31,841 nucleotides of DNA, taken from IMG/VR virus record IMGVR_UViG_3300029448_000215, positions 1 through 31,841 of that record; one strand, written 5' to 3'. The DNA is from a virus. Under the pieces are notes generated by a model. It ran no database searches. It was given only the letters and a program-made list of their open reading frames with translations, and was not told where the DNA came from. Within the stretch, counting starts at the first letter, position 1; each line of letters starts with the position of its first letter. Made by a program: the position numbers and the translations under genes. Below, one piece after another: positions 1-30,069 of the stretch.

Positions 1-3000
1 CGGCGCTATCTCTCATAAACACTCTTCTACGTTTGATGTCTTTACCTCTAACTTTGGCCTCGGCTTTTGAAAACACTTTTTTAGATTCTATATTTAAAGA
101 GTGTTCCATTATTTTGTTAACTTCAAGATTTACGTTTTTACTAGCTAAAGCTTGTTGAACTTTAGATTTTATATCTAATTGATTTAAAACGTCTCTAACA
201 GCCTTTACGTTAGGCAAGGCGTCATCAACAAAATACATGTCATTATAACCTTGTGAGAACTTTTCTAACATCCACAGCGCTTTTGCTTCTCCAGTGCTAT
301 TACCTAAACCAGTAATATTTTTTAAAGGTATTTCAATGCCTTCTGATTTTAAATACTCGTGTATTGCTGGTGCGCTTTCATGTGCTCTCGCGGTTAATAT
401 AAACACATTTTCAGGGCCAAACTTTTTAATTTGGTTTTTCATTTTCTGCATTAAAGGTCCTGGTCTACCTTTTGTAACTCTATTAAAGTCTGAAAAATCC
501 ATCTCCCAACCTTCTTTAACCATTTTATCTCCAACAAAAGGCCATTCGTGCGAAGCTATTTTTTTAGTCTTACCACCTTTTTTAGCTATAACAAAATTAT
601 CACTAATACCGACGGTTTCATCAAAATCAAAAGCACTCATACCTCTAGCTTTTTTGTTTTTAACTCTACCGCTTTCTATTGCTTCCTCTCTGATTTTAGC
701 GTTTCTAATCATCTCTGTAGTAGTGACATTTTTAGAAGGTAAGTTGGCTTTTTTAGAAGCAACCTGAAGAGCCTTATAACCCGCCCCACCTTGTAATCTA
801 CCATCTATAATTTCAGCGTAGGTTTTACCGGTTTTTAGATCAACAATAGATTCCATTATTTGCCTTTCTAACAGAAAGTTAGCTTTAGCCATTACATCTG
901 TAGTCATTCCTTTTTCAGCATATATATTAGCCGTGTTACCTCCAGACTCAGCAGAGTCAATTCTTTCTTGTAACTCCTTGTTAATTATACTTTGCTTAAA
1001 CTCTCTAATTAGAGGTTTCATATTTTCATTAAAACCTTTTTTGTTTCCAGAGTAGTTTAAGGTACTTAAAAGTAAATTACCAGTAAAGTTAGCTAGTTGA
1101 AGCTCGTGCTCACTTCTGTATCTTTTAGATAAAGCCATGTCTAAGTTTCCACTTCTTTGTAACGTGGAGGCGTTGTGTGTTGCTAGACCTCTAAACCAAC
1201 CACCACCTAAATTGGTTTGTATCTGCATTAAATAACTAACGTTATTAATAGCTTTTTCAATAGCTCCTTTTTTACCAGACTTAACGGTATTGTTTACGTG
1301 ATCAAATATTTTTTCAGAAATATACTCTAACATACCTTTGTTTGCTTCGAGCATTTTTTCATAACCTTTTAACGTTCCATCAGGTGACAATTGTTTTTTA
1401 ACATTTTCAACATAAGCTTTTCTTGATTTAGCGTTTTTAGGGTTAAAAAGATCAACACCCTTGCTCTCAAATGTCTCTAAAGTTTTATCAACTATCTCCT
1501 GTACCTTAGTATTATCGTTTACTTTAACAAACTTAGGATCAAAAAACTTTTTAGCAAACTCTTTGTCTGTGTAGGGTTTTTTAGTTTTTGGGTTTATTTC
1601 TTTTATTCCTTCAAGTCCTTCAAAAATACCGTTACGCATTTCAGCGTCAAATATTTTGTGCTCAGTAATCTCTCCTCTTTTTTTACTTGTTCTAGTTACA
1701 AGTGGTCTATAACCAAATCTTTCGGTACCATAACCCATGGTTGTCCCAAGCCCACCTCTATCCGGACCACCCATACTCAACAGTCTAGCATCAAAAGTAT
1801 TAAACAATTCAGGTAAAAACTCTTCAACATATTCTCTACTAAAGTCTACATCTTTTTCTCTTGCGGACTTACTTTTGTTAATATTAATACTTTCTTTGTC
1901 AACAATTCCTTTTTCAGCTAAAACGTCTATTAGCTTATTTAGCTCTCCATAAACACTTGTTCCTTTTTTGCCGCTAAACTTAGCATCAAATATAACTGGT
2001 CTAGCTGCTTTGCCCTGTATTATACCAAGCGTTCTACCTGCTTCACCAACTTTTACAAATAACTCACCAGTTGTAGCTAAATCATCTATGTTTAGCCTCA
2101 TCTCATTCATGATCTGCTCTTTGTAAGGTTTAAGATCCTCGTTGTTAGCTATAACCTCTAACATAGCGGATCTAGCTCCTTGGCCTTTTCTTATCTTTTC
2201 AGCAAATTGATCAACTACTAGCTTTGTTTTTTTAGACGCTAAAGCTTCTGGAGTAGTTCCTCTTAGGTTTTCTCTAATAGATGTTAAAACTTGATTAAGC
2301 TGAAGTCCTTCATAAACACCAGGATTCATTTTCTTTAACATTTCAGCAAACCTAGGATTGCTTAGTTGTGTATCTACAATTTTTCTACTTATAGTAAAAG
2401 CTCCATGCGGCATTAAGTAGTCCATTTTTTTGTGATGCTGATCTTTTCTACTACCTTTAAATATAATTTCGTTAAGAATACCTTTTCTATAAGGTTTTTT
2501 AGTCATTTTATCTCTACCCTCAGCTTTTTGAGAATCTGTAAGTATTTCTTTAGCAATACCCTTGTTTAATTCAGCAAAAGTAAATTCACCTTTAGACTCG
2601 TAAACACTTCTAAATGCAGACTTAGCAGCGTTTGTAGTCTCCGACGTGTACTTATCTCTAGTCTCTGGAAGCATCATTTCGTAAAGCTCTCTTTCTTTCG
2701 TCTCAAACAATTCTTTAGAAGCATCGTAATACTTTTTCTTAGGTACCTTCTCTAAAGTGATACTACCGTCTTTGTTTTCAACTTCTTTATATCTACCAAA
2801 TTGTTTTTCTAACAACTTTTGAGTTTCAAAAGTAATAGCTTCGGCTAGCTTAGCTGGTCTTAAGTCGATAAGTGCTTTTGTTGATTTTAAATAGTCAGTT
2901 GTATTTTTTCTAATACTAACCAAGTCTCTAGGTTCAACATAATCAAGTGGATTTATTTTCTTTTTACCCTTAGCTTCTCTTTTTATTTCCTCTGTTGATT

Positions 3001-6000
3001 TGAATTCAAACTGTTTAACACTAGTGTCAATAAGTTCTCTACCGGTTTCACGCATAGTTTCTTGGCTCTCCGTGTAACCAAGCTCAGCAAAGTCATCCAT
3101 TTTATCAAGAGCATCACGCTTCATGTCATGAATACGTAAAGCCAATGTTTGCATAACCGTTTTAGTTAGGTTTTGTTTACCTTTGTAACCCTCCGCTTCA
3201 GCTTGCTTTATAAACTCAGGTGTACCAAACTTAGCGTCATACTTACTTTCTAACGCTTCGATTTTTTTATCATTTAACCTTCTGTTTCCGTCCGCTTCAT
3301 AAATATCTTTAACCTCTTCTTTGGTTCCATCTCTTTTTTCAATAGTTCTAGTGCCAAAGTCTTTTCTATTAGTATAGTCTTTTATTATTCCTTGAAGACC
3401 CCTGTTTTTAGTTTCAGGACCTCTACTTAAATCATAAACCATTTCTAAGGCTAGCGTATATTTTTGATCTGGATTTCTATGTACATCTGGGTACATCTTT
3501 TCAATCATATCGTATATTATACCGTCAAACTCTTTACCAGCTACAGAGCCACGCTCCGTTGATGGTGCTGTTATTTGTTCTACGGCCCTGTCAAGTTTTC
3601 TACCTTCCTTACCCCTAACTATATCGTCATATACTTTTTGGGTTTTACTAGATAGTTCTACTGACTTAGAGGCAACATTACTTGCTACGTAATCTTCGGA
3701 AGCTTCTTCGTTTTTTCTTTGCTCTGTTCTACTATCAGCCTCTATAGATTCTGCAAAAACCTTGCCGTCCTTTATACCCTTAAACATGTTAACTTGTTTT
3801 CTGGTAAGATTTCCAGCCATAACAGATCTAGAAAAATTAGCCATGAAATCTATTAAATCTTGTTTTGTGCCACTCTCAATAACGCTAGTCCCAGCATATC
3901 TATTGGTAAACTTATTTAAGTCTGCTTTTAATTTATTCCAAGTTCCATTTGCAACAAATTTACTATAATACCTAGGATTTGCTAAAACCTCAGCTGTATA
4001 AGCTAAAAACTCGTTAGCTTTTATTTTGTCAAAATTAACTTGACTTCCATGTTCGTTTTTGACTAACTCTTCAATAGACATACTCTTAAACTTACCAGTT
4101 AGCTTACCATCCTTATCTTTTATCTCAACATTACTAAACATTTTTCCTTTAAAACTAGATTCAATAGTAGCCTTAAATCTATTCATTAACTCTGGATTGT
4201 TATCAAACAATTTTTTCATCGTTAAGTGAAAAACCTCATGTGGAATTTTACCTGGTTCAACTCTATTAACATCTACTAATATAGTTTTACCATCTTTAGA
4301 GAATTCTGCTGCCGAGTCTTCAAACTCAAATAGTTCTTTACCATCTTTATCTTTCCTACTATTAACGGCTTTCAAAGATACGTCTTTACCAAAAACAGCT
4401 TTTATGTTTCTATCTTGACGTTTCATCATTTCAGTGGCTTTCTCTGGATCTTGCCAATCGTTCATGTCATATATACCCTCTAGCTTAGTATGAACGCCTA
4501 TAAACAACTCTTCAGCTTTTTCTAATTTTTCAGCTATTTCTAAAAACTCTTTAGAACCCTCACGTTCAGTAGCCTTCATATTTTCTAACGCGTTTTTATA
4601 TACAGGTATCTTTTCAGCTAATTCACTTTCTAATTTTTGTAATCTAGATGTTGTTTTAAAGTTGTTTTTCCAGTTCTTACCACCGCCAAAAGCCCAACCT
4701 TTAGCGCCGATTGACGTAAACACGAGGTAATCAACAATAAAATCCTCAGTTGTTAACTCTAAGTTCGCGTAATTTTCTTTAACCCAAGTTTGATATGATT
4801 CTTTACCCGCAACATCTCTAGCTAAAGCTTCTAGATTAGCGGCTGCTTGTACTGACAAACCACCACCCAAACCAGCTTTATTAGCGTTCATAAAAGTATT
4901 AAGAAGGTTGTACTTTGATTTAAAGTTAGGGATTAAATTTCCAACAGCATAAAAACCAGCACCACCACCTAAATGATAATGCTCGTCAAAAGCTCCCTTC
5001 ATTTTAAACTCCTCTTTTATGATACCGCCAGTATGGTAGAGACCTTTTTGTAATATGTTTCCTTTGCTAAGTTTAGAAACTAATTTAGCTGCCCCAGGAA
5101 TAATTCCGGTACCTTTTTTAATAGCTAAATCTATTAAAGCAAATTCAGCTATAGCGGGAACAAAACCAGTTACACCCTCGTAAACTCTATAAGCACCGTT
5201 TCTTTTAATTCTATCTTTTTGGGTTGTAGTAAGTTTAATATTACTATTATTTGCTATGCCCTCTAAAATATCTCGCTCTTCTCTACCACTAGTCATCACG
5301 TCTGTGTCAACCTGGCTTCCGCCAAATATACCTTTAAAACCTTCTAATACTAATTCAGTCCCTCTCTCTGGAAGAAATGTTTTTCTCGATGCTGGATCAA
5401 TATTTAGTAAGTGCATTTTAGTTAATACCTTACCTTCTTTTATTATATTAAAACGATCGTCTCTATAATCTTTTAAACTTCTTTTAAATGCTTTTGATAA
5501 ATCAACTCCTTCTTCATACTCATCAGTTCTAGTTGTAAGATCATGAAGCAAAGACGAACTCCTAACTTCTTGTTCCCCTACTTTTTCTGTTAATCCAAAG
5601 TAACCGATGTCTGTTTTAAAGTCTCGGGGTCTAAACCCTTGGTATTGTCCTTTAATATTAAAAAGTCCAGATAAAGCTGCTTTAGGTCCAACTACAAAAT
5701 AGTCATCACCAACTACCTTTCTGTCTTCGGGAGCAACTTGGCCTTGTCCGGTTAAATCAAGAGCAACGGTAAACCCATCAGATTTAACAGTAGCATCGTA
5801 ATATCTTGCTAAGTGCTTCTTTTTAACAACCATCTCATAACCATTCTCATTAGCTCCTTTTACCTTATATCCTAACTTTTGAAATATTGCAACGGCTTGT
5901 GGATCGTTTATTGTAACATCATACTCTTGTTCGCCTTGCTTATCACTAAGCCATTTCTTTCTCCCATTAACGTTAAAAGCTTGCTCAACATTTTTCCCGT

Positions 6001-7177
6001 AAGTTAACTTAATCTTACTCTCTGTTTTCTCTAACTCTTCTTTAGTTATAGAAATAGCTGTTGCTGCTTCTGGAGCCTCTGGATTTATAGATGCACCAGT
6101 TATAGGATCATATAATTTTTTGGTACCGTATTCATACCATTTTTCATATTTTTTTCTTAATAGTTTATTAGCTTCTTCTTGATCAGTGTATTCTTTTGTT
6201 CCAGGTTCTAAAGTGTTTAATCTTTCTATACCATCGTGTAGATTTTTACCCTCTTCAGACAAGGTCAATATTTTATGAGCTTTGTTTGCTACATCTATTT
6301 TAGTTTCCGTAGTGTTTTCTTCAGTTATAGTACCAGCAAGAGTTGTAGCCGCTTCTTCAACTTTGCTATTTTTATCTTTCTCAAACTTCTTTGTTACAGC
6401 ATTTTTAACTATTTCTTCTATAGACTGTTCGCTCATAGCAGCAAACTCACCTGTAGCAGTAAAGTCACCCTCAGTCAAACCAAGAAACCCAGGACCAAAT
6501 TCACCAACTTTTTCTTTTAAAGCTCTTAATACTTTTTCGTAATCATTTTCTTCTCCAGCACCACTTTTACCACCTCTAGTTTGAGGTTGTATATACTCCC
6601 AATCAAAATCTTCACCCAATACACTTGTTAAAAACTCTTCACTTTCTAAATTTTGAGCTATAATATTTTCCGCGTTGGTTTTTTGTTGTTTGAATTCTTT
6701 GTCGATTTTTTTATCTCTATCAAAAAAGTTTATTACGTTTTGATTCACCCCCTCCCATGTAGCTGTTTGCCCACCAGTACTAAGTACGTTTGGTACATCA
6801 AATTCCTCAGAAGTTGTATCAGTAGAGGCGTCGTACATAGTAAACCTATCTTTTCCAGCAGCGGCTTCTTGAAAAGCAACACCAGAATCTTTATAGTATT
6901 CGTTCATTTTTTTCACAAAATCACCCTCAGCTTGCAGCCAAGAAACACCCTCTTTCATTTGGTCTACAGTAGCATGCTTAATCTCTGGTAAATCCGACGA
7001 ACCATCGCCCGACCCTGAATCCATAACGTTTGACGCAGGGTCTGTTGACTTTCCCGGCTCAACCGTAGGATAGAATTTTTCAATATACTCTTCTATAGTT
7101 AACCCCTTACCCTGGGCTGCTAACGAAACTTCTTGGTGAGTGTAATTGTCACCGTCTAACAAGTAGTTCTCTGGCAT
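1..7177 (-). CDS. Giant virion-associated protein with zincin-like and HAD phosphatase motifs (C-terminus cut off)
   Basis: The frame is open from an ATG at 7177 to the window edge, giving at least 2392 residues; the stop lies beyond base 1. The start follows the upstream gene's stop by 10 bases, with an A-rich leader and no Shine-Dalgarno sequence. Seen in the translation: HEVFH at residues 980-984, an HExxH zinc-protease motif, followed by NEFLA with E1056 as a possible third zinc ligand (gluzincin-like). Near the end of the visible part are all four HAD motifs: D2184-F-D2186-E-T, T2262 in ILTAR, K2299 in GEAKA, and D2318-D2319 before ALPNV. Between them are long charged helical regions, with a more hydrophobic stretch near residues 650-680. 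The late position and size fit a protein packaged in the capsid and ejected with the DNA, but that is inferred. Similar giant proteins with a HAD segment occur, from memory, in marine phages. Enzyme activity and substrates are unknown. It could also be a polyvalent protein of the MuF/LPD kind. Confidence 0.85.
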   Translation of the reverse strand, partial: MPENYLLDGDNYTHQEVSLAAQGKGLTIEEYIEKFYPTVEPGKSTDPASNVMDSGSGDGSSDLPEIKHATVDQMKEGVSWLQAEGDFVKKMNEYYKDSGVAFQEAAAGKDRFTMYDASTDTTSEEFDVPNVLSTGGQTATWEGVNQNVINFFDRDKKIDKEFKQQKTNAENIIAQNLESEEFLTSVLGEDFDWEYIQPQTRGGKSGAGEENDYEKVLRALKEKVGEFGPGFLGLTEGDFTATGEFAAMSEQSIEEIVKNAVTKKFEKDKNSKVEEAATTLAGTITEENTTETKIDVANKAHKILTLSEEGKNLHDGIERLNTLEPGTKEYTDQEEANKLLRKKYEKWYEYGTKKLYDPITGASINPEAPEAATAISITKEELEKTESKIKLTYGKNVEQAFNVNGRKKWLSDKQGEQEYDVTINDPQAVAIFQKLGYKVKGANENGYEMVVKKKHLARYYDATVKSDGFTVALDLTGQGQVAPEDRKVVGDDYFVVGPKAALSGLFNIKGQYQGFRPRDFKTDIGYFGLTEKVGEQEVRSSSLLHDLTTRTDEYEEGVDLSKAFKRSLKDYRDDRFNIIKEGKVLTKMHLLNIDPASRKTFLPERGTELVLEGFKGIFGGSQVDTDVMTSGREERDILEGIANNSNIKLTTTQKDRIKRNGAYRVYEGVTGFVPAIAEFALIDLAIKKGTGIIPGAAKLVSKLSKGNILQKGLYHTGGIIKEEFKMKGAFDEHYHLGGGAGFYAVGNLIPNFKSKYNLLNTFMNANKAGLGGGLSVQAAANLEALARDVAGKESYQTWVKENYANLELTTEDFIVDYLVFTSIGAKGWAFGGGKNWKNNFKTTSRLQKLESELAEKIPVYKNALENMKATEREGSKEFLEIAEKLEKAEELFIGVHTKLEGIYDMNDWQDPEKATEMMKRQDRNIKAVFGKDVSLKAVNSRKDKDGKELFEFEDSAAEFSKDGKTILVDVNRVEPGKIPHEVFHLTMKKLFDNNPELMNRFKATIESSFKGKMFSNVEIKDKDGKLTGKFKSMSIEELVKNEHGSQVNFDKIKANEFLAYTAEVLANPRYYSKFVANGTWNKLKADLNKFTNRYAGTSVIESGTKQDLIDFMANFSRSVMAGNLTRKQVNMFKGIKDGKVFAESIEADSRTEQRKNEEASEDYVASNVASKSVELSSKTQKVYDDIVRGKEGRKLDRAVEQITAPSTERGSVAGKEFDGIIYDMIEKMYPDVHRNPDQKYTLALEMVYDLSRGPETKNRGLQGIIKDYTNRKDFGTRTIEKRDGTKEEVKDIYEADGNRRLNDKKIEALESKYDAKFGTPEFIKQAEAEGYKGKQNLTKTVMQTLALRIHDMKRDALDKMDDFAELGYTESQETMRETGRELIDTSVKQFEFKSTEEIKREAKGKKKINPLDYVEPRDLVSIRKNTTDYLKSTKALIDLRPAKLAEAITFETQKLLEKQFGRYKEVENKDGSITLEKVPKKKYYDASKELFETKERELYEMMLPETRDKYTSETTNAAKSAFRSVYESKGEFTFAELNKGIAKEILTDSQKAEGRDKMTKKPYRKGILNEIIFKGSRKDQHHKKMDYLMPHGAFTISRKIVDTQLSNPRFAEMLKKMNPGVYEGLQLNQVLTSIRENLRGTTPEALASKKTKLVVDQFAEKIRKGQGARSAMLEVIANNEDLKPYKEQIMNEMRLNIDDLATTGELFVKVGEAGRTLGIIQGKAARPVIFDAKFSGKKGTSVYGELNKLIDVLAEKGIVDKESININKSKSAREKDVDFSREYVEEFLPELFNTFDARLLSMGGPDRGGLGTTMGYGTERFGYRPLVTRTSKKRGEITEHKIFDAEMRNGIFEGLEGIKEINPKTKKPYTDKEFAKKFFDPKFVKVNDNTKVQEIVDKTLETFESKGVDLFNPKNAKSRKAYVENVKKQLSPDGTLKGYEKMLEANKGMLEYISEKIFDHVNNTVKSGKKGAIEKAINNVSYLMQIQTNLGGGWFRGLATHNASTLQRSGNLDMALSKRYRSEHELQLANFTGNLLLSTLNYSGNKKGFNENMKPLIREFKQSIINKELQERIDSAESGGNTANIYAEKGMTTDVMAKANFLLERQIMESIVDLKTGKTYAEIIDGRLQGGAGYKALQVASKKANLPSKNVTTTEMIRNAKIREEAIESGRVKNKKARGMSAFDFDETVGISDNFVIAKKGGKTKKIASHEWPFVGDKMVKEGWEMDFSDFNRVTKGRPGPLMQKMKNQIKKFGPENVFILTARAHESAPAIHEYLKSEGIEIPLKNITGLGNSTGEAKALWMLEKFSQGYNDMYFVDDALPNVKAVRDVLNQLDIKSKVQQALASKNVNLEVNKIMEHSLNIESKKVFSKAEAKVRGKDIKRRRVFMRDSA

Positions 7178-7187
7178 AATGTGTATT

Positions 7188-9434
7188 TTATTTTAATTGT
7201 TTTTTGTTCTCGCTCATAAACTTTTGTATTTTTTCCCAAGCATCAGGTTTATCAAGCATAATTATAACTTCCTCCTTGCCATTACTAATATTCATAGCCC
7301 TTCCACCTAGCTCCCATTCCGTTGTGAACGTATACCCACTAAACCTTTCGTCTGAATTAAAATTAGCAACCACCTGTTCCTCGTTCCCAGAACCGATAAT
7401 AGATCTTGTGTAGGTTGCAAATTCTTTGTCCGCTTGAGCTTTTGTCTCGGCTGTTGATTTGTAACTCCAATCTTTAATCCCGGTGTAATTTTTGCTTTGC
7501 AAGTAATCGTCAGAGAACTCCCCTTTTTCGTTACCAAAGAACATAACTTCCAATAATTCTTTTTTATTCTTAAAAACGTACCCACTATTGCTGTTTACAT
7601 AAGCGCCTTTGCCTTCATCCCAAAGGATAGAACCGCCATTTGTAAGTGGGATTGACTCTTGGGAGTTTATTATGTTTTGAAAATTATTAAGATTGTTAAG
7701 TTTTACTTCGTCCATATAGCCATTACTACCACCCTTGATAATAGAGCTTTCTTTAGTGTTTGTAGTAAAATTTAAATCGACCTCTTCTTTTTTTCCTTTG
7801 TTGATCTTAGACCAGTTTTGTGCTACACGATTCTTACTTTCCCAAGCTCTACTTCCTACAGCATCAGGGTTTTGATCAAAGGTTAATTCTGTTGATTTGC
7901 TCTTCTTATATGCACCCGTAGTTTCATCCCATTCAAAACCACCAGCGTTGGCACCACGCCCATTCATAGCCTTGCCTTCTTCAGACCACCAATCCAAGAA
8001 CACTTCTTTAGCTACGCTATAGTTGTAGTTCTTAGACTTTGGATTCGTTAAAGCGTCTTTCATGATATTGTAGTTTGCTAATCCATTTTCTCCCGCAAAA
8101 TCAGCTTCGTCTATTCCCTCTGAAGTACCTGGAACGTCTTCTATACCTTTTATCTTTGCCATTGCCCCATACATACCAGCTGAGAAATTACTTTGTGTGT
8201 TTAAGTCTTCTACAAACGTATTATCTCGCTCTCCTAGGTGAGCAGTCTGTAATGTACGTAAATTTTTTGATGTTACAATAGCTCCAGAATCTCTTCTAAA
8301 CCCATTGTCTAAATGCTCACCACCTTTTAAACCGTTGTTGTAGGCGTTAAGATGTAACTTATTCATGTTTACTATCGCGGCATCGTCTCCAGGATCTAAT
8401 AAATCACCTATATTTTTAGAGTTAACTACAATGGGTTCGCCTTTTTCCATATGTTTTTTCGATAGAGTAAGCTTACTTCCATCGTCCCCCAAATCCAATC
8501 TCTCCCAATCATCCACGTATTTATCCAAAGCCCAATTCTTATGCCAGCCCATCCAGCTCTTGCCATCATCACGCGAGATCATGATACCTGTCCCATCTTC
8601 ACTACTTTTATACAGATCCCCATCAGTACCCAAGTAAACCTCTTCTGCAATGATAGCCTCTCCATAATCGTTCATTCCAGTAACAGCGTTTCCTTCTGGA
8701 TCTCTTAATGCCCACTCAGCAACACCCTCGTCGTTAGGTCCCCATGAAGCATAGTAACCTTTGAAGTTACCTTCTTCAATAGGTTTTCCTCCACGCGATA
8801 TACACTGTGCCATAAGGACATTTATCGGAGGAGTTGCTTTTTTATTCCATGTCTCGTTTGCTAGCATGTCATTGTTAACCGCCATCCCATCTTCCATTCC
8901 TTTTATATCACCAAATAATTTTGATTGCTCCATCTCATACATTATCTTTAGCTTTCTTCTCTCAGTGCCAAAAGGTAAGTCTTTATAATCTGCTTTTTGC
9001 TTTTTTAACGCTTCAAGTTTACCCGTGTAATATCCAACTGGATTATCCGCACCCGATTCAATGGCTGCTATTCTTTCTAATTTCACATCATCAGATAATG
9101 CGGTGTTTGCGTTTATTTCCTCTATCCTTTTTTTAGCGTAGTTTGGATCTTTATATAAATCATCGTAAGCTCTTCCAAGAGCGTCCATTTTTCTATTCTC
9201 TACAGCAGCGTCGTAAGCACCTTTTGCTAATTCCCCAGCTACCTTACCCATCTCCGCATAAGCTTCTCCAACCCTTGCCATTGACGTCTCATACCCAGCG
9301 GCCATAGCTCTAAAATCCGCACCCATATCTGTAGGTACGTTACCCATAGCTGCTTTATAAGCCGCATCTACTAAAGTAGCATCTGCTGTTGGAGATAAAG
9401 TTGTTACTCCTGGAGTATATTGTCCTTTTGCCAT
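7188..9434 (-). CDS. Putative internal virion (ejection) protein, 748 aa
   Basis: A complete 748-residue frame with an ATG start, two bases after the stop of the 279-aa gene. I do not recognise a named domain. The first 110 residues are Ala/Met/Gly-rich and probably helical (AAMGNVP, FRAMAAGYETSMARVGEAY), followed by a charged Lys/Glu helical region to about residue 180. The rest is hydrophilic, Asp/Asn/Gly/Trp-rich and looks soluble; no signal peptide or membrane segment is evident. It sits between a Gln/Met-rich putative ejection protein and the giant protein, so it may be part of the same set of proteins carried in the capsid. This assignment rests on position and composition only. An alternative is a structural tail component. 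No regulatory signal separates it from its neighbours. Confidence 0.6.
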   Translation of the reverse strand: MAKGQYTPGVTTLSPTADATLVDAAYKAAMGNVPTDMGADFRAMAAGYETSMARVGEAYAEMGKVAGELAKGAYDAAVENRKMDALGRAYDDLYKDPNYAKKRIEEINANTALSDDVKLERIAAIESGADNPVGYYTGKLEALKKQKADYKDLPFGTERRKLKIMYEMEQSKLFGDIKGMEDGMAVNNDMLANETWNKKATPPINVLMAQCISRGGKPIEEGNFKGYYASWGPNDEGVAEWALRDPEGNAVTGMNDYGEAIIAEEVYLGTDGDLYKSSEDGTGIMISRDDGKSWMGWHKNWALDKYVDDWERLDLGDDGSKLTLSKKHMEKGEPIVVNSKNIGDLLDPGDDAAIVNMNKLHLNAYNNGLKGGEHLDNGFRRDSGAIVTSKNLRTLQTAHLGERDNTFVEDLNTQSNFSAGMYGAMAKIKGIEDVPGTSEGIDEADFAGENGLANYNIMKDALTNPKSKNYNYSVAKEVFLDWWSEEGKAMNGRGANAGGFEWDETTGAYKKSKSTELTFDQNPDAVGSRAWESKNRVAQNWSKINKGKKEEVDLNFTTNTKESSIIKGGSNGYMDEVKLNNLNNFQNIINSQESIPLTNGGSILWDEGKGAYVNSNSGYVFKNKKELLEVMFFGNEKGEFSDDYLQSKNYTGIKDWSYKSTAETKAQADKEFATYTRSIIGSGNEEQVVANFNSDERFSGYTFTTEWELGGRAMNISNGKEEVIIMLDKPDAWEKIQKFMSENKKQLK

Positions 9435-9436
9435 AA

Positions 9437-10276
9437 TTATATTTGTTTAAAGTCTACGTCTAACATACTGTAATCTACCGCGTCATAACCATTATCCATT
9501 TGTACAACTGCTTCTTGTGGTATTTCATTAGATATTACACCTTGGAATAATCCTCTACCATATTTAGAATCTTTATATTCGAAACTATATATATTTAACC
9601 CACTAGGTGATTGCCCAATTTTGTTTATATTCTTTTTAAGTCTTATGTCGGACGCAGCATTGACAAAGCTACCAGCAAGTTGCATGTTGGCTCCGTATCT
9701 AGCGCTCTGCATCTGCCCCGCTGCAGCCATAGCTGACATTTGGTTTCCATAAGCACCTTGTACAGCGGCATTAGCCCCACCCATACCACCATACTCTATA
9801 CCAAGTAAAGTTGTTTGCCTTTGCATTTCGGCTGATTGAACCATCGCTTCACCACCTCTTTCTGTCATATCAGCTTGTCCAGCGCCTTGTCTCTCCATCT
9901 GTTGATTTTGTCTTTCTTGCTGAGCAATACTAATTGACGCTTGTTGAGCTTGTAGTGCTCCTTGATTAGCCAACACTTGCGCTAAACTAGCAATACCACT
10001 TCCTCCAGCAGCACCTCTTAGGTTTTGCATTAGATCAGCTCTCTGTTGATTAGCTTGTTGCATTGCAAAGTTTGCAGCCTTAGTGTCAACAGTCATACCC
10101 TCAAATTGATTCTCCATATTCGCGTATGGATTTTTAAATTGAAATTGTCTATATTGTTCTTTTTGCTTTGCTAGAATTTCACGTTGAATTTTCTTCTCAC
10201 CTTGCGCTTCGTCTAATTGACTTTGCGTCATGTCCATCATTCTCTGCTCGTGTCTTCTTTGTCTTCTTGCTCCCAT
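9437..10276 (-). CDS. Putative ejection protein with C-terminal S74-like segment, 279 aa
   Basis: The N-terminus is strongly basic (GARRQRRHEQR). Residues about 15-45 are a Gln/Glu/Lys-rich helix, and residues 60-205 are rich in Gln, Ala, Met and Gly, the composition seen in phage internal or ejected proteins such as T7 gp14 or P22 gp7. At residues 209-217 is SDIRLKKNI, the hallmark of the peptidase S74 intramolecular chaperone domain. In endosialidase-type S74 domains the Ser and Lys of SDxxxK form the self-cleaving dyad; here these are S209 and K214. The following residues (LNIYSFEY, GVISNEIPQEAV, VDYSMLD) match the rest of the fold, but the protein ends soon after, without the usual long C-terminal helix. 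Cleavage would release about 71 residues. It is packed between the GNAT gene and the 748-aa gene with gaps of two bases. The S74-like call is good; the ejection role is inferred. Confidence 0.7.
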   Translation of the reverse strand: MGARRQRRHEQRMMDMTQSQLDEAQGEKKIQREILAKQKEQYRQFQFKNPYANMENQFEGMTVDTKAANFAMQQANQQRADLMQNLRGAAGGSGIASLAQVLANQGALQAQQASISIAQQERQNQQMERQGAGQADMTERGGEAMVQSAEMQRQTTLLGIEYGGMGGANAAVQGAYGNQMSAMAAAGQMQSARYGANMQLAGSFVNAASDIRLKKNINKIGQSPSGLNIYSFEYKDSKYGRGLFQGVISNEIPQEAVVQMDNGYDAVDYSMLDVDFKQI

Positions 10277-10278
10277 AT

Positions 10279-10692
10279 TTATAAGTATTTAAATGCTTCG
10301 TAATTGGTTTTATGCATATCCCACCCTAATTTTCTATGTATTTGTTCTATAGAGCGATTTCCACAAACCGTAAAAATCAACTTCATTCCCCATCTATCCT
10401 TCGCTTCGTTTTCAATACAAGTTATTAATAGCTCTAGCATCTGTCTTCTATCTTTTTCTTTATACTTTGGATTTGATACCGTCCAAGTATTATAACCCAC
10501 TAAAGGGTTTACTGCTGCGAATAAAAAACTAGCCGCTACAGGTACTCCGTTGCTCTCTATAATAAAACAACGTATATCTTCTGGTAAAAGAGCTCGTTTA
10601 ACCGGTATCTCTTTCCACCACCACTCCCACCACTCACAGCACATTTCGTAGTCCCCCTTTTTAAAGGTCCTAAAGGTCACTTCATTTTCCAT
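10279..10692 (-). CDS. GNAT-family N-acetyltransferase-like protein, 137 aa
   Basis: Length and pattern fit a small GNAT protein: N-terminal strand (VTFRTFKKGDY), an inner strand pair around residues 42-60 (CFIIESNGVPVAASFLF), a strand and helix at 66-98 (YNTWTVSNPKYKEKDRRQ then a long helix), and a final strand-helix with LIFTVCGNRSIEQIHRKLGW. GNAT enzymes move an acetyl group from acetyl-CoA to an amine. The usual pyrophosphate-binding RxxGxG/A loop is not clear here: the region reads KEKDRRQMLELL and lacks the glycines, so activity is uncertain. Residues 21-26 are WWEWWW; a Trp-rich patch at this place, followed by Pro and LPED, is something I recall from GNAT-like genes in marine phages. 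It sits within the structural genes, so it may modify a virion or host surface component, but the target is unknown. Confidence 0.7.
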   Translation of the reverse strand: MENEVTFRTFKKGDYEMCCEWWEWWWKEIPVKRALLPEDIRCFIIESNGVPVAASFLFAAVNPLVGYNTWTVSNPKYKEKDRRQMLELLITCIENEAKDRWGMKLIFTVCGNRSIEQIHRKLGWDMHKTNYEAFKYL

Positions 10693-10741
10693 GATTTAAT
10701 TTAATTTGATTCTACTGTAATATAATTACACTTTTTAGCAA

Positions 10742-11098
10742 TTATTTACTACTTTCCGTGACATCCATGTTGACTGAGAATAGTTCTGCTTCCTCTGCGG
10801 AGTTATTTCTAAACTCTAGTTCTGCAAAATATCCTTTTAAACCACTTAGGTTAGCCCTGTTATCTTTAGTAAACATTATAAAACTACCTGGGTTAGGTGT
10901 AGATGAACCTGGTTCTTGAGGGTTAACAGTTATAGTAGAACCCTGTATGTTGGAACACGGTCCCAAAAGTTGAGTCTGAGTCGTGTTTGATACTCCAAAA
11001 CCACCGTTTACTGAAACAGTAGTAGCATATATAAGATCCCCAACTTGAAGAGATATGTTAATGTTTGTTTGATTTGGAAGTGTTAATATATATGCCAT
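10742..11098 (-). CDS. Small conserved virion-module protein, 118 aa
   Basis: A 118-residue, mostly beta-type protein. The N-terminus (LTLPNQTNINISLQVGDLIYAT) and middle (STITVNPQEPGSSTPNPGSFIMFTKDN) lead to a C-terminal pattern GYFAELEFRNNSAEEAELFSV that I recall from small proteins beside tail genes in marine phages. No catalytic motif, signal peptide or membrane segment is seen. It begins one base after the stop of the 471-aa gene, so the two are probably made from one message. The product is likely a minor structural or assembly protein. The function is unknown, and I rely on position and recalled resemblance, which is weak evidence. Confidence 0.65.
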   Translation of the reverse strand: MAYILTLPNQTNINISLQVGDLIYATTVSVNGGFGVSNTTQTQLLGPCSNIQGSTITVNPQEPGSSTPNPGSFIMFTKDNRANLSGLKGYFAELEFRNNSAEEAELFSVNMDVTESSK

Positions 11099-11099
11099 G

Positions 11100-12515
11100 T
11101 TATGTTGTTATGAAATTGTCTAAAGCTAATCTAGATGTTACGTCTTGTATTCCTATACTTTGTGTTTTTATATCTGCTGTAACCTTTATTACACTAGGTG
11201 CTGATTGAACAGCTTTTAGATTACTGAAAGACACAACTGTCCCACCATTATCAAAACGCATAGTAGTTCCATATTTAACGTTTTGTGAAGTCGAAAGAGT
11301 AACAACCTGCCCATCCGCGTCAATAGCAGAAACAGTTACTTCTTTAGCCGTGGCTTCTTCCGAGGGGTAAATAGATGTAGGACCGTCGGCCGCGGCCTTG
11401 GCCTTGGATTTAAACACGTACTCTTCCTCACCAGTTATTTTTAAAGCACTTTTTTCCAGTTGTGTTAAGGGTGGTAAAGCATGCTCTTTAACTGTTAATC
11501 CAGTTGTGATTTTGGCCGCATCTGCAGACGATATCTTTATTTTATCCCCACTTTTATTACTAAGAGCTCTTACATCAAAGAAAGTGTTTTCACCTTCACC
11601 TAACGTGTTTGCTATATTGTTACTGAAGTCTGTGGCTTTTGGCTGTCTGCTCAGCGTTATAGCACCACCACTAGCTCCTTTTATTTCCCAACTTAGAGAT
11701 GTTGTAGTTGTAGATTTAAGTCTTTTAACCTTACCCTTACGTATAGTAGCGTCACCCGTTAAAAGTACACTAGCTGGGAAAGTTGCGTAATCACTAGCAT
11801 TATCATCAGAAATCATAGTTAATGTTAGGGTAGTTGTATACCACTGAGATATGGTTGTCTTTTTCACAAAACCCTTGTTTAAAGTAGTCCCTGCTTTTGG
11901 CTTTACTTCTATAGTATATCTATCCGAAGCTGTAACTGAGGGAAAGTTTTGTGTAAATTTATAAACACCAGAACCCGGTATGATACCATCAATACTGCTT
12001 TCGCTATAAGTTAGTTTATTAACGCCGGCATTATTTATTAATGTTAATGTAAATTTAGCGCCAGGTGTTCCGTTTATTGATACTGCTCTTTTTTCTCCAC
12101 GGTAACTAATACTGTCTGTGTTTGTAATTATTTGTGTTAACTCCAACGCGGTTGGATTATAAATAGGTGGTCCGCATCCGCAAGTAACTTTTAAATACTC
12201 AAATTGTGCAATTTTAGCTTGCTTGTGTTGGTAGTGTGCGTACCCCTGTTGGTTTCCTGGATTTGGATTCATATTAGCTAATTGAGCGTTCCAATGGTTC
12301 AATCTATTATCAAACCAGCTACATCCAGCGTTTTGATACCTTACCCACATATTCCAAGCGTGAGTTGGGTAACCGTTGGTGTTGTTTCCTAAACAAAAAT
12401 TCTCTGTAGTGAAAATGGTAGGGTTTTGACAATGTATTTGAAACATAGAAGTTGTTGGACCAGTCGGTCCCACCATATGATAAGCATATTGAAAATCAGA
12501 AATAGTACAAGACAT
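11100..12515 (-). CDS. Putative tail or fibre protein with Trp/Cys module and beta-rich body, 471 aa
   Basis: Residues 41-116 hold a Trp/Cys module: C41, then AGCSWFDNRLNHW (63-75), QLANM (78-82), KQAKIA (98-103) and CGCGPP (112-117). The same pattern occurs twice in the 525-aa protein encoded just upstream. After it, residues 120-471 are Thr/Ser/Val/Lys-rich with repeating beta-strand patterns (SISYRGEKRAVSINGTPGAKFTL and others), like Ig-type or fibre domains. The last 120 residues (KEVTVSAIDADGQVVTLST) look like another beta domain. No enzyme motif is seen. The pairing with the 525-aa gene (13-base gap) and position after the big tail protein suggest a peripheral tail or adhesion component. 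This is inference; the module itself is visible. Confidence 0.65.
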   Translation of the reverse strand: MSCTISDFQYAYHMVGPTGPTTSMFQIHCQNPTIFTTENFCLGNNTNGYPTHAWNMWVRYQNAGCSWFDNRLNHWNAQLANMNPNPGNQQGYAHYQHKQAKIAQFEYLKVTCGCGPPIYNPTALELTQIITNTDSISYRGEKRAVSINGTPGAKFTLTLINNAGVNKLTYSESSIDGIIPGSGVYKFTQNFPSVTASDRYTIEVKPKAGTTLNKGFVKKTTISQWYTTTLTLTMISDDNASDYATFPASVLLTGDATIRKGKVKRLKSTTTTSLSWEIKGASGGAITLSRQPKATDFSNNIANTLGEGENTFFDVRALSNKSGDKIKISSADAAKITTGLTVKEHALPPLTQLEKSALKITGEEEYVFKSKAKAAADGPTSIYPSEEATAKEVTVSAIDADGQVVTLSTSQNVKYGTTMRFDNGGTVVSFSNLKAVQSAPSVIKVTADIKTQSIGIQDVTSRLALDNFITT

Positions 12516-24983: not shown

Positions 24984-26447
24984 TTAGTTCATTAACATGA
25001 AGTTGTTAGCACCTTGTGTAATTAAACATCTTTCAGATAAGTAATTAACTCTCATTGCATCTAATTCAGATGTAGCTGCTCCAACAGAACCAGTAACCCA
25101 AGTTTTGAATCTTCTGTCATCTGTTTGTGAAGCTCTATATCTAACATGTAAGAAAGGTCTCTTAAGATTTCTTCCTAACTGTTGGTCGTATACCGAAGAT
25201 ACACCAGCTGGAACAATAACCCCTCTAACAGCATCGGCAGTAGCTCTAGCGTTAATAGCTCCCCTAGTACCAGCGTCGTTTAAGTATTTCCAGTCAGATT
25301 TGTAGAAATCGTAAGATCCACGTCTGAAGCCAGAGAAACCTAAATTTAATGCCATGTCTTCTGAGTTACTAAATACTCCGTAAGAAGTACCACCAGCCCC
25401 ATAAGAATTCATAGCAGCTAACATATCATCCATCGCTAAAGATGTAGATCTGTTAACAAACATCATGTTTTCTTCAATAGCTCCTTGAGAATCAAACTCT
25501 GCTAAGATAGCGTCAAATTCAGCTAAATCAGTAGCAGCATTAACACCAGTAATACCTGAAGTAGAGTTACCTCTATCAGAAATAGCATCGAATAAACCTT
25601 GAGTACCAAAAGTAGTACCAGTAGTAGCTTGAGGAGATACAAGGAAATTAACACCTGTATCAAGAGTAGAACCTGCTAAACCTGCAACACCTTCTAAAAC
25701 TTGCATCTCACAGTTGTCAGCGAACCTCATTCTAGTTTCACCTTCAGCTTTTAAGTACCATAAGTACCCAGAAGCACCGTCTTCACCAGAAACCTCAACC
25801 CATCCTATCGCAGACGTGTCAGAACCAGAAACGTGATACATGTCTCTAATGATAACTGGTTTGTTAGTAAATGATTGGTGAGAAGGTTCGTTAGCTGATG
25901 TATAAGGAGTATCTGAACCTTTTGCCCACTCAGAACCTATCTTAAGTACAGTAACCGCAACGTCACCCATCGCAGGTGTTAAACCACTTGCGTGAGCAGC
26001 TTCGTAAGGAAGAATTGTGATAACATCAGAAGCGTCATCAGCTGTAATTCTACCAACATAAGTTACGTTAGCAGCAGCAACAAGACAAACATCACCAAGA
26101 CGTAAACCGTGCTCGTTTTCAGTATATGTTGCATTTGTTCCAGCGTGACCTGTTAATGTAACAGCAGAAGCAGAAGCATCTATCGTACCTGTGTACGCTA
26201 AATGTAGTCTACCTTGCTCAGACCATACAACCTGATCAGATTGCATTGCCTCTTCAGCTCCTACTTGTGAAAGAAATCCTGAAACTGTTCTGTTTCCGAA
26301 AACCTCAGCTTCTTTCTCCATAAGATCTGGTAAATATTGTTGTGCCCAACCGTTTCCAGCAGCCGTAAAGTCTATGTAATTAGAGTTTAGCGCGTTTTGG
26401 GTTGGATTTGGGATAATGTTTAGATTACCCCCTGCAGTAATTGCCAT
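24984..26447 (-). CDS. Major capsid protein, 487 aa
   Basis: The gene lies where a capsid protein is expected: after terminase, portal and scaffold, with a strong terminator behind it. The translation is Ala/Gly/Thr/Ser-rich without Lys/Glu-rich helical runs. It opens MAITAGGNLNIIPNPTQNAL, followed by AAGNGWAQQYLPDLMEKEAEVFGNRTV. The C-terminal part has FYKSDWKYLNDAGTRGAINA, RGVIVPAGVSSVYDQQLG and FLHVRYRASQTDDRRFKTWV, typical of phage capsid shells of the HK97 type. Residues about 85-175 (YTGTIDASASAVTLTGHAG up to VTVLKIGSEW) look like a beta domain inserted into the fold. Codons here look more uniform and less AT-extreme than in neighbouring genes, as expected for a highly made protein. The HK97 fold is inferred from the family setting. 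Confidence 0.85.
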   Translation of the reverse strand: MAITAGGNLNIIPNPTQNALNSNYIDFTAAGNGWAQQYLPDLMEKEAEVFGNRTVSGFLSQVGAEEAMQSDQVVWSEQGRLHLAYTGTIDASASAVTLTGHAGTNATYTENEHGLRLGDVCLVAAANVTYVGRITADDASDVITILPYEAAHASGLTPAMGDVAVTVLKIGSEWAKGSDTPYTSANEPSHQSFTNKPVIIRDMYHVSGSDTSAIGWVEVSGEDGASGYLWYLKAEGETRMRFADNCEMQVLEGVAGLAGSTLDTGVNFLVSPQATTGTTFGTQGLFDAISDRGNSTSGITGVNAATDLAEFDAILAEFDSQGAIEENMMFVNRSTSLAMDDMLAAMNSYGAGGTSYGVFSNSEDMALNLGFSGFRRGSYDFYKSDWKYLNDAGTRGAINARATADAVRGVIVPAGVSSVYDQQLGRNLKRPFLHVRYRASQTDDRRFKTWVTGSVGAATSELDAMRVNYLSERCLITQGANNFMLMN

Positions 26448-27651: not shown

Positions 27652-30069
27652 TTATCTAGGGTCAAACGCATCTAAATTAAATCCTCCGCTTAGTATATCA
27701 TTACCTGCGGACTCAAAGTTTTTAGGTGGTTTACCACTATTTCTTTGCTCAATCATCTCTGATTGCTGTGTTGCTTGTATCTTTGTTCTTTCGTCTTTAC
27801 GATCTTCCTTTTGCTTCTCTCTATTCTTCATTCCATCAACCTCAATTCCCTTGAGTTGCATGTTGAAGTTGAACTCCAGTCCCATTAATTCTTTTTTCAT
27901 TTGAACCTCTTGCATCATTCTCTGAGACTCCATTTGAGCTTTTGCTTGTTCTAGTTGAACTTTATTCCTCGTTAACGCTTGATCTTTTTGCATTTCTATC
28001 TCAGCAGCTGCTTGTGCCGCTTGTGCATTAGATTGACTTTGGGCTTGGATATTCTCTAATTGTAACTGTCTATCCTTTTCTTGTTTTTTAGTTCTTCTTA
28101 TTTTTAAAACTTGATTTGCTAGTTTTAGATTTTTAATATCTCTAATATCAATAGCATCTTCAAGTTCTATGCTTTGTTGTTGAAGAGCCATTTGGATATT
28201 ATTCTCTAGTATTGCTTTCTCTTCTTCATCTGGTTGTAACTCTATAAAAATACCAAAGTCGTATAAATTAAGATCTGAAATCTCACTTAGCGTAGCTACG
28301 TTGTGAACACCAATAGCTTGTATGAAAGCATCTTTTGTAGGAGAGTACTCTATAATATCTGATATTCTTAATGACAAACACTCTGCAACTTCAGCAGTTA
28401 AAAATAAACCCGCCTGTAATATGTGTCTAGTTGCTGTGTTAGAATTAGCTGCCGCTATCTTTTGTATTCCAACTAAAGCGTTTTTATCTGGTGTACTACC
28501 ATCTCTAGCTTCGTTAAGACCAGTCACGTCTCTTATCATTTGTAAGTAGTAGTTATAGTTTGCTATCAGTGCTTGGATTTTATTACCCCCACTACCACTA
28601 GTTATTTCTTGGATTGGTACTTTACCAGGATTCATATCACCTTCACTTGTAAAACTTCTCCCAATAACAGATCCCGTTTGGAAGAACATGTTTAAAGCCT
28701 CTTGCGGGTTGTAGTTTGTACCGTTACCTAAATCAATCTCAGCTAAACCATCAGCATCTAAATAGACGCCATCAGGAACCATTCTGGACATTACTTGTTG
28801 AAGTTTTAAGTGTGTCAATTGAATCATATCAGCAAAACTAGTTACCCTTCTAACTAGTGAATCAATTTTCCCGTTATACATTCTTGGTGCTACAATAGAG
28901 TAATTCATTTTAACTTTCGTAAAGTCACTCTTAGGTCGCATCATATTTTTAGCCATTTCCCATCTAAGCAACTTGTTGGTACCTACGATTATAGCTCCAT
29001 CATAGAGGCACTCTATAGATCTTAATAATCTAGAGTACCCACCTTCTTTGTCTTCCGGTGGGTTAAAACTATCATCTTTTTCAATCGCCTTATCACCTCC
29101 ACTAGCACTTTCTTTTAACTTATAAACCTCGTTCATATAAGTCTTGTAGTTAAAGTATAAAACCTGAATAGTGTTTTTATCTTCTTTGTCTGAAGAGAAT
29201 CTAGTTGTGTTGTTGTTCCTATTAAATGTTTTGTTTTTCATTATATCCTCAAGATCACTTTCAGATAAATGAGGAAATTGTTTTGCCAATTCGTTAACTG
29301 GAATAGTTTTAACTTCACCAACATAATATATGTCTTCAAAGTAAGGGGAGTCAGTATAAGAATATACTAGGTTAGCTGGATCAACATAATCTACGGTAGC
29401 TCCTTCAGAAGTGTTAAAGCTTGTTTTTACAGCACCAATACCTACAACGGCTAAATCTTGGTAGAATCTCTTTTTTATCAACTCATACCTACTACCTTCC
29501 ATCAAAGTGTTTATCGCCTGCTCTTCTGCTATCTCTACTGCCTGCTTGTAGTTAAGCTGCATATGAACTTGCAGTTCCTCTGTGGTCTCTGGTAAGGTTG
29601 GCTCCTCACTCTCCCTCATATCTAAACCAGTCTCCGCCATAACAGTGTCGTTAAACTCCCGCATTTCCATGTCGCTTAAAATCTTCTGCATGTACTCAGT
29701 TCGTTCAGCAACTCCATACGGGTCTTGTGAGTAAGCTTTTATATCATACGTTCTTTCAGCTATACCGTTAACCACTATATCAACAAACTTAGAGACAATT
29801 GGAATTGGTTTCCAATCTAAATTTAAATAGGACAAATCACCGTTTATAGATAACTCATCCTTGTATTTTTGTATAGACTGCTCACCCCTAGCGTACAGTC
29901 TTAAATTATGAAAGTTATTAGTACTAGTTCCATATCTACTAGAACCATTACTATTATCAAACCATTCTCCTTCAATAGCTTTTGCAACCTTTAAACCATA
30001 ATCGTAACTCAGCTTCTCGAAGTCGCTAACTACTTGTGATGGGAAATTATTTCCAACAGACTTTGCCAT
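27652..30069 (-). CDS. Portal protein, 805 aa
   Basis: The portal ring sits at one capsid vertex and forms the channel through which DNA is packed and ejected. The gene directly follows terminase (five-base gap), as in most tailed phages. The N-terminal part contains the sections WKPIPIVSKFVDIVVNGIAE and YDIKAYSQDP, then a long helical section (LNYKQAVEIAEEQAINTLMEG, YQDLAVVGIGAVKTSF) and YVDPANLVYSYTDSPYFEDI, a pattern I know from portals of Bacteroidota and crAss-like phages. MIQLTHLKLQQVMSRMVPDG and the QMIRDVTGLNEARDGSTPD segment belong to the later stem and wing region. Residues about 640-770 are a long Gln/Glu/Lys coiled coil (KKQEKDRQLQLENIQAQSQ onward), as expected for a C-terminal barrel extension. 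The length of 805 is on the large side for a portal. Confidence is high for the role, moderate for domain limits. Confidence 0.9.
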   Translation of the reverse strand: MAKSVGNNFPSQVVSDFEKLSYDYGLKVAKAIEGEWFDNSNGSSRYGTSTNNFHNLRLYARGEQSIQKYKDELSINGDLSYLNLDWKPIPIVSKFVDIVVNGIAERTYDIKAYSQDPYGVAERTEYMQKILSDMEMREFNDTVMAETGLDMRESEEPTLPETTEELQVHMQLNYKQAVEIAEEQAINTLMEGSRYELIKKRFYQDLAVVGIGAVKTSFNTSEGATVDYVDPANLVYSYTDSPYFEDIYYVGEVKTIPVNELAKQFPHLSESDLEDIMKNKTFNRNNNTTRFSSDKEDKNTIQVLYFNYKTYMNEVYKLKESASGGDKAIEKDDSFNPPEDKEGGYSRLLRSIECLYDGAIIVGTNKLLRWEMAKNMMRPKSDFTKVKMNYSIVAPRMYNGKIDSLVRRVTSFADMIQLTHLKLQQVMSRMVPDGVYLDADGLAEIDLGNGTNYNPQEALNMFFQTGSVIGRSFTSEGDMNPGKVPIQEITSGSGGNKIQALIANYNYYLQMIRDVTGLNEARDGSTPDKNALVGIQKIAAANSNTATRHILQAGLFLTAEVAECLSLRISDIIEYSPTKDAFIQAIGVHNVATLSEISDLNLYDFGIFIELQPDEEEKAILENNIQMALQQQSIELEDAIDIRDIKNLKLANQVLKIRRTKKQEKDRQLQLENIQAQSQSNAQAAQAAAEIEMQKDQALTRNKVQLEQAKAQMESQRMMQEVQMKKELMGLEFNFNMQLKGIEVDGMKNREKQKEDRKDERTKIQATQQSEMIEQRNSGKPPKNFESAGNDILSGGFNLDAFDPR

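Follow-up and report, generated by a model that had tools for sequence, protein, structure and literature searches.

Locus and gene order

The window analysed here is an entire virus record of 31,841 bases. On its minus strand it contains a gene for a giant protein of 2392+ codons (2..7177), which starts with an ATG at 7177 and then runs without a stop down to position 2. Given that the window is the whole record, the 3' end of this gene is missing, lost at the contig end. The preliminary description reported a single frame of at least 2392 codons from this ATG, with a protease-like HEVFH at residues 980-984, E1056 as a possible third ligand, and HAD residues D2184, D2186, T2262, K2299, D2318 and D2319. 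The uninterrupted frame and all of these positions hold. Uncut relatives of the protein are 2,135-3,858 aa long. Complete relatives continue for about 830-1,000 aa after the DxD motif of the HAD domain, which means that about 600 more residues are expected in the window protein beyond residue 2392.

The giant gene is the third of three consecutive genes (279, 748 and 2392+ aa) that come after the tail genes. The first of these (9437..10276, minus strand) has the place of T7 gp14 and N4 gp52, and matches the virion structural family phrog_6121 (7.5e-8); its C-terminus has a weak Peptidase_S74 match (0.0016). The second (7188..9434, minus strand) has the place and size of T7 gp15 and N4 gp51, and its synteny suggests a tunnel-type ejection protein.

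Directly upstream of these three ejection-type genes there is a 137-aa ORF (10279-10692). Its counterpart in MW202828 has an N-acetyltransferase-like annotation, and a 'structural protein' is found near the equivalent place in phi38:1. The tail region also holds a 2517-aa protein (14128-21681) with GCTDPxAxNYDPxAxxDDGSC-type repeats near its C-terminus.

The clade was placed using a major-capsid-type virion protein (24984..26447, minus strand; phrog_13704, 2.8e-101) and a portal protein (27652..30069, minus strand). Both genes recur in 38 of the 40 records tested, at identities of 54-82% for the capsid and 64-82% for the portal. The records that carry the giant therefore form one clade. By the same two genes, the cultivated phages most closely related to the clade are podoviruses infecting Flavobacterium, Cellulophaga, Maribacter and Tenacibaculum, which makes a Bacteroidota host likely. 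The window belongs to an uncultivated marine podovirus clade that probably infects Bacteroidota.

The N-terminal active site

Residues ~930-1125 of the giant (3803..4390, minus strand) form a zincin-like metallopeptidase domain, according to alignments, a predicted model, and fold and profile matches. The motif HEVFH (4226..4240, minus strand) supplies the predicted zinc ligands and general base H980, E981 and H984, and is invariant. The predicted third zinc ligand, E1056 (4010..4012, minus strand), is the E of NEFLAY and lies on a second conserved helix, as both alignment and model indicate.

In alignment A2, which covers 59 zincin regions, no columns are invariant except H111, E112, H115 and E187. 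These correspond to H980, E981, H984 and E1056. Most of these regions are only 9-25% identical to the window. A second zincin alignment of 76 rows has a Glu at the E1056 position in all but one. The earlier suggestion that E1056 is the third ligand is supported by this conservation, and the comparisons show a zincin-type active site, with H980, E981, H984 and E1056 as its predicted residues.

The predicted model of the region (mean pLDDT 74) has N-terminal helices, then strands (65-69, 88-90, 96-100), then the HExxH helix (108-121), and finally the E1056 helix (185-196). This is the zincin order, and in the prediction the HExxH and E1056 helices are correctly placed. The same arrangement of helices and strands has been described for the metallopeptidases (MPTases) of polyvalent proteins (PMC5512222), in which the conserved helix following the HExxH helix likewise supplies a ligand Glu.

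Compared with PDB structures, the model repeatedly finds PprI/IrrE, jannalysin/selecase and lethal-factor chains, but weakly (best E 0.19, Z <5). Among viral models it resembles the zincins of large phages and of polyvalent proteins, and the best match has E 1.1e-3 and probability 1.00. Lower viral matches include proteins named for polyvalent domains or LPD, structural proteins of Tenacibaculum and Cellulophaga phages, and a crAss-like 'RNAP associated protein fused to zincin protease'. The zincin profile also matches gp18 of phage elemo at HEIFH (1.5e-10).

Standard family searches are silent on this protein: Pfam, PHROGs and NCBIfam gave no family at threshold for the window giant or its pieces. 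Nominal matches such as NNH2 and UDPG_MGDP_dh_N are below cut-off and unconserved, and were rejected. A sequence search of solved structures with A2 and A3 returned nothing meaningful.

The C-terminal active site

The HAD phosphatase-type domain spans residues ~2176-2341 (155..652, minus strand), some 1,200 residues further along the chain than the zincin site, and is supported by alignments as well as profile and fold matches. Its four motifs, all on the minus strand, are invariant in 81 of 81 sequences. Motif I, D2184-F-D2186 (620..628), holds the predicted nucleophile and acid/base; in the window it reads D2184-F-D2186-E-T2188, which fits DxDx[T/V]. Motif II is T2262 (392..394), motif III is K2299 (281..283), and motif IV is D2318-D2319 (221..226), the predicted Mg ligands. 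Together with these, T2188 and R2264 are also identical in 81/81. The claim of a complete HAD set is therefore confirmed, given the invariant catalytic residues and the profile and fold matches.

Identity over the HAD region is 69-84% for the first nine relatives and 51-82% for the wider set. NCBIfam models of HAD subclasses (HAD-IA/IB/IIIC) match several members; the best match, HAD-IA-v3 at 1.7e-5, is in a relative.

For the fold, a model was made of the HAD plus C-terminal module of relative L002, 874 aa in total. Residues 36-201 of this model align with HAD phosphatases in most top rows, in agreement with a Rossmann-like HAD fold. The best HAD match has Z 7.9, rmsd 3.5 and 107 aligned residues, and a Z below 8 counts as moderate. 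The Foldseek list for the 874-aa model as a whole is not headed by HADs. The HAD matches point towards the class C acid, NagD-type and phosphoserine phosphatases. Profile comparison with T4 PseT, AphA, SerB and UmpH gave no clear separation from non-HAD controls.

HAD phosphatases of the class C acid, NagD/p-nitrophenyl and phosphoserine types share the fold and the four motifs with the giant's domain, as does a PNK-type HAD from the uncultured 462-kb phage LR756500. Unlike all of these, the HAD described here is fused within a giant virion-block protein. The LR756500 protein, a stand-alone HAD of 187 aa (L097 7842-8402), is the one HAD relative found in the phage collection. It matches the giant's HAD at 1.5e-12 with an hhalign probability of 95%, and in turn hits phrog_415 'polynucleotide kinase' (5.4e-6). 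This two-step link from the giant to polynucleotide kinase is a lead only.

Past the HAD, relative L002 (16106-18727) shows a conserved, helical C-terminal module of ~600 aa with a TQQSSRxDxxSxQQ-type motif. The module has no family match. HAD and module together are 41-84% identical over ~870 aa.

Pairing across the clade

Searching viral contigs with the entire giant protein turned up 8 loci. With the HAD alignment as query, 242 stretches matched, and 80 loci from these were retained. No HAD relatives were confirmed in bacterial genome contigs. Whole giants compared by tblastn with the phage collection gave no match, with the caveat that this collection may omit records very near the window. 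By blastp, the window zincin finds 18 relatives and the window HAD 78.

Exactly one HExxH is present in 75 of 79 distinct giants from viral contigs, while composition predicts a total of 1.2 over all 79 together. In these 75 the HExxH sits 784-1,380 residues N-terminal to the HAD site. As a control, other ORFs of at least 400 aa at the same loci have a single HExxH in their 86,087 residues taken together, with 0.4 expected. This lone motif is probably that of the upstream half-gene at locus L019 (HEAIH).

The four exceptions are of different kinds. L072 and L075 are cut contigs, which end before the expected zincin start. L016 has the variant HEVLGH (HExxxH) at giant residue ~947 and retains the downstream Glu; the HExxxH form has also been described for some polyvalent MPTases (PMC5512222). 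At L019 the giant gene consists of two overlapping ORFs (2077-6774 and 6737-12178), with the zincin in the upstream and the HAD in the downstream one. This split could be an assembly error or a natural separation of both enzymes. Two further loci deserve mention: for L027 the HAD site was taken as the second FDFDET, at 2529, and L033, overlooked by the motif filter, does have HEMGH and DFDYT.

Among close pairs of relatives, dN/dS is 0.01-0.17 in zincin and HAD alike. These sequence comparisons show that strong purifying selection has maintained both predicted active sites throughout the clade. What began as a protease-like motif and a HAD set observed together in one protein is now a conserved architecture (75/79 giants, zincin always before HAD). 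The two sites thus belong together by a design common to the group, and their pairing is no accident of one sequence.

Cultivated relatives

Residues ~367-820 of the giant (4718..6079, minus strand) are homologous to giants of Flavobacterium, Cellulophaga and Maribacter podoviruses; these limits are approximate and were transferred by position from relatives. In blastp, elemoF 349-813 aligns with L086 338-791 at 4e-17, with phi38:1 and Panino matching more weakly.

In the Flavobacterium phage elemo (Elemovirus), gp18 has the same gene place, a homologous N-terminal core and a homologous zincin. The giants of Cellulophaga phage phi38:1 (gp101, Pervagoviridae) and Maribacter phage Panino share place and core, but are without HExxH. 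The MW202828 giant likewise has the same gene place and a core homologous to that of the window clade. A profile search of the elemo, phi38:1, Panino and MW202828 giants found the HAD and C-terminal module absent from all four. Since the core is shared while HAD and module are absent in the isolates, the gene slot is common and its payload varies.

The MW202828 giant itself (L093 42-11621) is 3859 aa long and has two HEFGH motifs, at 1615 and 2500. This makes two zincin-like sites on one chain possible. The syntenic giant of Panino (L091 31774-37263), of 1829 aa, is annotated as a tRNA methyltransferase. Taken with its missing HExxH, this annotation suggests that the giant slot bears different enzymes in different phages.

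Comparison with known systems

Polyvalent proteins (Iyer et al. 2017, PMC5512222) are likewise multidomain giants among late virion genes. The criterion for such proteins is different effector domains on one chain, and the window giant has a zincin and a HAD on one chain in the late virion block. Polyvalent proteins are mosaic, however, whereas the zincin-HAD pairing is fixed throughout this clade. PMC5512222 distinguishes 12 clades of MPTases. No Pfam polyvalent (LPD) domains were found in the giant pieces searched, and neither 'HAD superfamily' nor 'phosphatase' was found in the main text of that paper.

The N4 virion RNA polymerase gp50 (PMC12633501; NC_008720) is also the giant third protein of an ejection trio, gp52-51-50. 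It carries HELVH at 2228, and a weak profile alignment puts one of its Glu residues opposite E1056; as in the window clade, a mostly helical C-terminal domain follows the enzyme parts. In N4 the zincin comes after the other enzyme, while in the window giant it comes before the HAD. No Pfam RNA polymerase domain was found in the giant pieces searched; the giant has a HAD instead.

T7 gp16 is also the last of three ejection genes, and the T7 sizes for gp14-15-16 are 196, 747 and 1318 aa, versus 279, 748 and 2392+ here. It is about half the length of the window giant or less. Neither a match to the T7 gp16 family nor a transglycosylase domain was found in the giant. T7 gp16 has two membrane-interacting regions around a cytoplasmic part, an arrangement that is proposed for the window giant as well.

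In the giants, hydrophobic zones flank both enzyme sites, one ~380 residues before HExxH and one ~200-215 before the C-terminus. The strongest segment in the window, residues 668-687 (5117..5176, minus strand), lies upstream of the zincin and is a candidate for membrane insertion. The peak rises above the whole zincin-HAD stretch in 65/66 full giants for the C-terminal zone, and in 57/66 for the N-terminal zone. Most peaks are under the classic transmembrane level (median 1.3-1.4).

Proposed mechanism and alternatives

The section of T7 gp16 that lies between two zones of this kind has been proposed to reach the cytoplasm (PMC8954989). Since both sites of the giant also lie between hydrophobic zones, they probably function in the cytoplasm of the host during entry. 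We hold it somewhat probable that the giant is ejected, that its zincin cuts its own chain or a host protein, and that its HAD dephosphorylates a small or nucleic-acid substrate.

In this scheme the giant would be packaged in the capsid and leave it with the two smaller ejection proteins. It would cross the inner membrane by way of the hydrophobic regions near residue 680 and ~200 before the C-terminus. As in the T7 gp16 proposal, the stretch with both enzyme sites would thereby arrive in the host cytoplasm. Once inside, the zincin would cut the giant chain, freeing the HAD and C-terminal module, or would cut a host protein. The HAD would take phosphate off a small or nucleic-acid substrate encountered at entry.

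Among the zincin roles, cutting the giant chain is most likely by analogy, as processing by zincins is a published proposal for polyvalent proteins (PMC5512222). The N4 virion RNA polymerase has a zincin-type domain and is nevertheless packaged unprocessed (PMC5512222), so self-cleavage is no general rule. Less probably, the zincin serves as an effector and, once injected, cleaves proteins of the host. It diverges far faster than the HAD, as the 18 versus 78 blastp relatives indicate, and an enzyme that has to follow its host targets would be expected to do so. PMC5512222 also names target-cleaving MPTases as one of the options. Yet a self-cutter with a co-varying cleavage site would diverge equally fast, and a zincin that always precedes the HAD is what one would expect of a chain processor.

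It is similarly tentative that the HAD works on nucleic-acid ends, as a phosphatase of the polynucleotide 3'-phosphatase type, and prepares DNA or RNA termini during entry. The phrog_415 match of LR756500, its sole relative in the phage collection, points this way. The domain has no direct profile similarity to the T4 PseT phosphatase domain, though, and the fold matches favour the other phosphatase types named above.

The HAD is unlikely to be purely structural and non-catalytic, for example as a stably folded element at the foot of the helical C-terminal module. Conservation does extend beyond the active site, over the ~870 aa of HAD and module, but the catalytic D, D, T, T, R, K, D and D are invariant in 81/81 amid varying surroundings.

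The preliminary description also had the chain carried in the particle and ejected. This part is probable, with virion location inferred from synteny, in that the gene order is that of T7 gp14-15-16 and N4 gp52-51-50, and from the annotation of relatives without HAD. It is quite improbable that the giant is instead made in the infected cell and kept out of the virion, even if the clade is known from metagenomic sequence alone. Besides the gene order, 'structural protein' is the annotation given to the syntenic giants in elemo, phi38:1 and Calle, phi38:1 gp101 matches the virion structural family phrog_22602 (1.3e-10), and the N-terminal core is homologous to that of the isolate giants.

Finally, a chance HExxH in a long chain, of which 2392 residues have a small chance of one and for which it could be said that all Pfam peptidase families fall below threshold, is ruled out by the 75 observed versus 1.2 expected and by four residues that are invariant despite very low identity.

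Meaning for the clade

The preliminary description saw the news in the combination of domains. Zincins have already been described in giant ejected phage proteins (PMC5512222, PMC12633501), so that half is not new. The HAD partner was not found described: a literature search, incomplete in coverage, gave no report of a HAD in a phage ejection protein. Homologues may be present unnamed in public databases.

In a group of Bacteroidota-type podoviruses, the giant third ejection slot appears to carry a varying enzyme payload on a shared core, and in one marine clade this payload is fixed as zincin plus HAD. Because the cultivated phage elemo has a homologous zincin on the same gene, self-processing is testable in an existing phage-host pair. 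If the HAD is injected, its substrate would give a pointer to what these phages face in the first moments of infection.

One speculative possibility is that the HAD, which is kept tighter than the N-terminal two thirds of the protein, is injected in active form and neutralises a phosphate-bearing signal or end at entry, after release by the zincin. If this were true, the ejected phosphatase would represent a kind of counter-measure at the entry stage that is new as a class.
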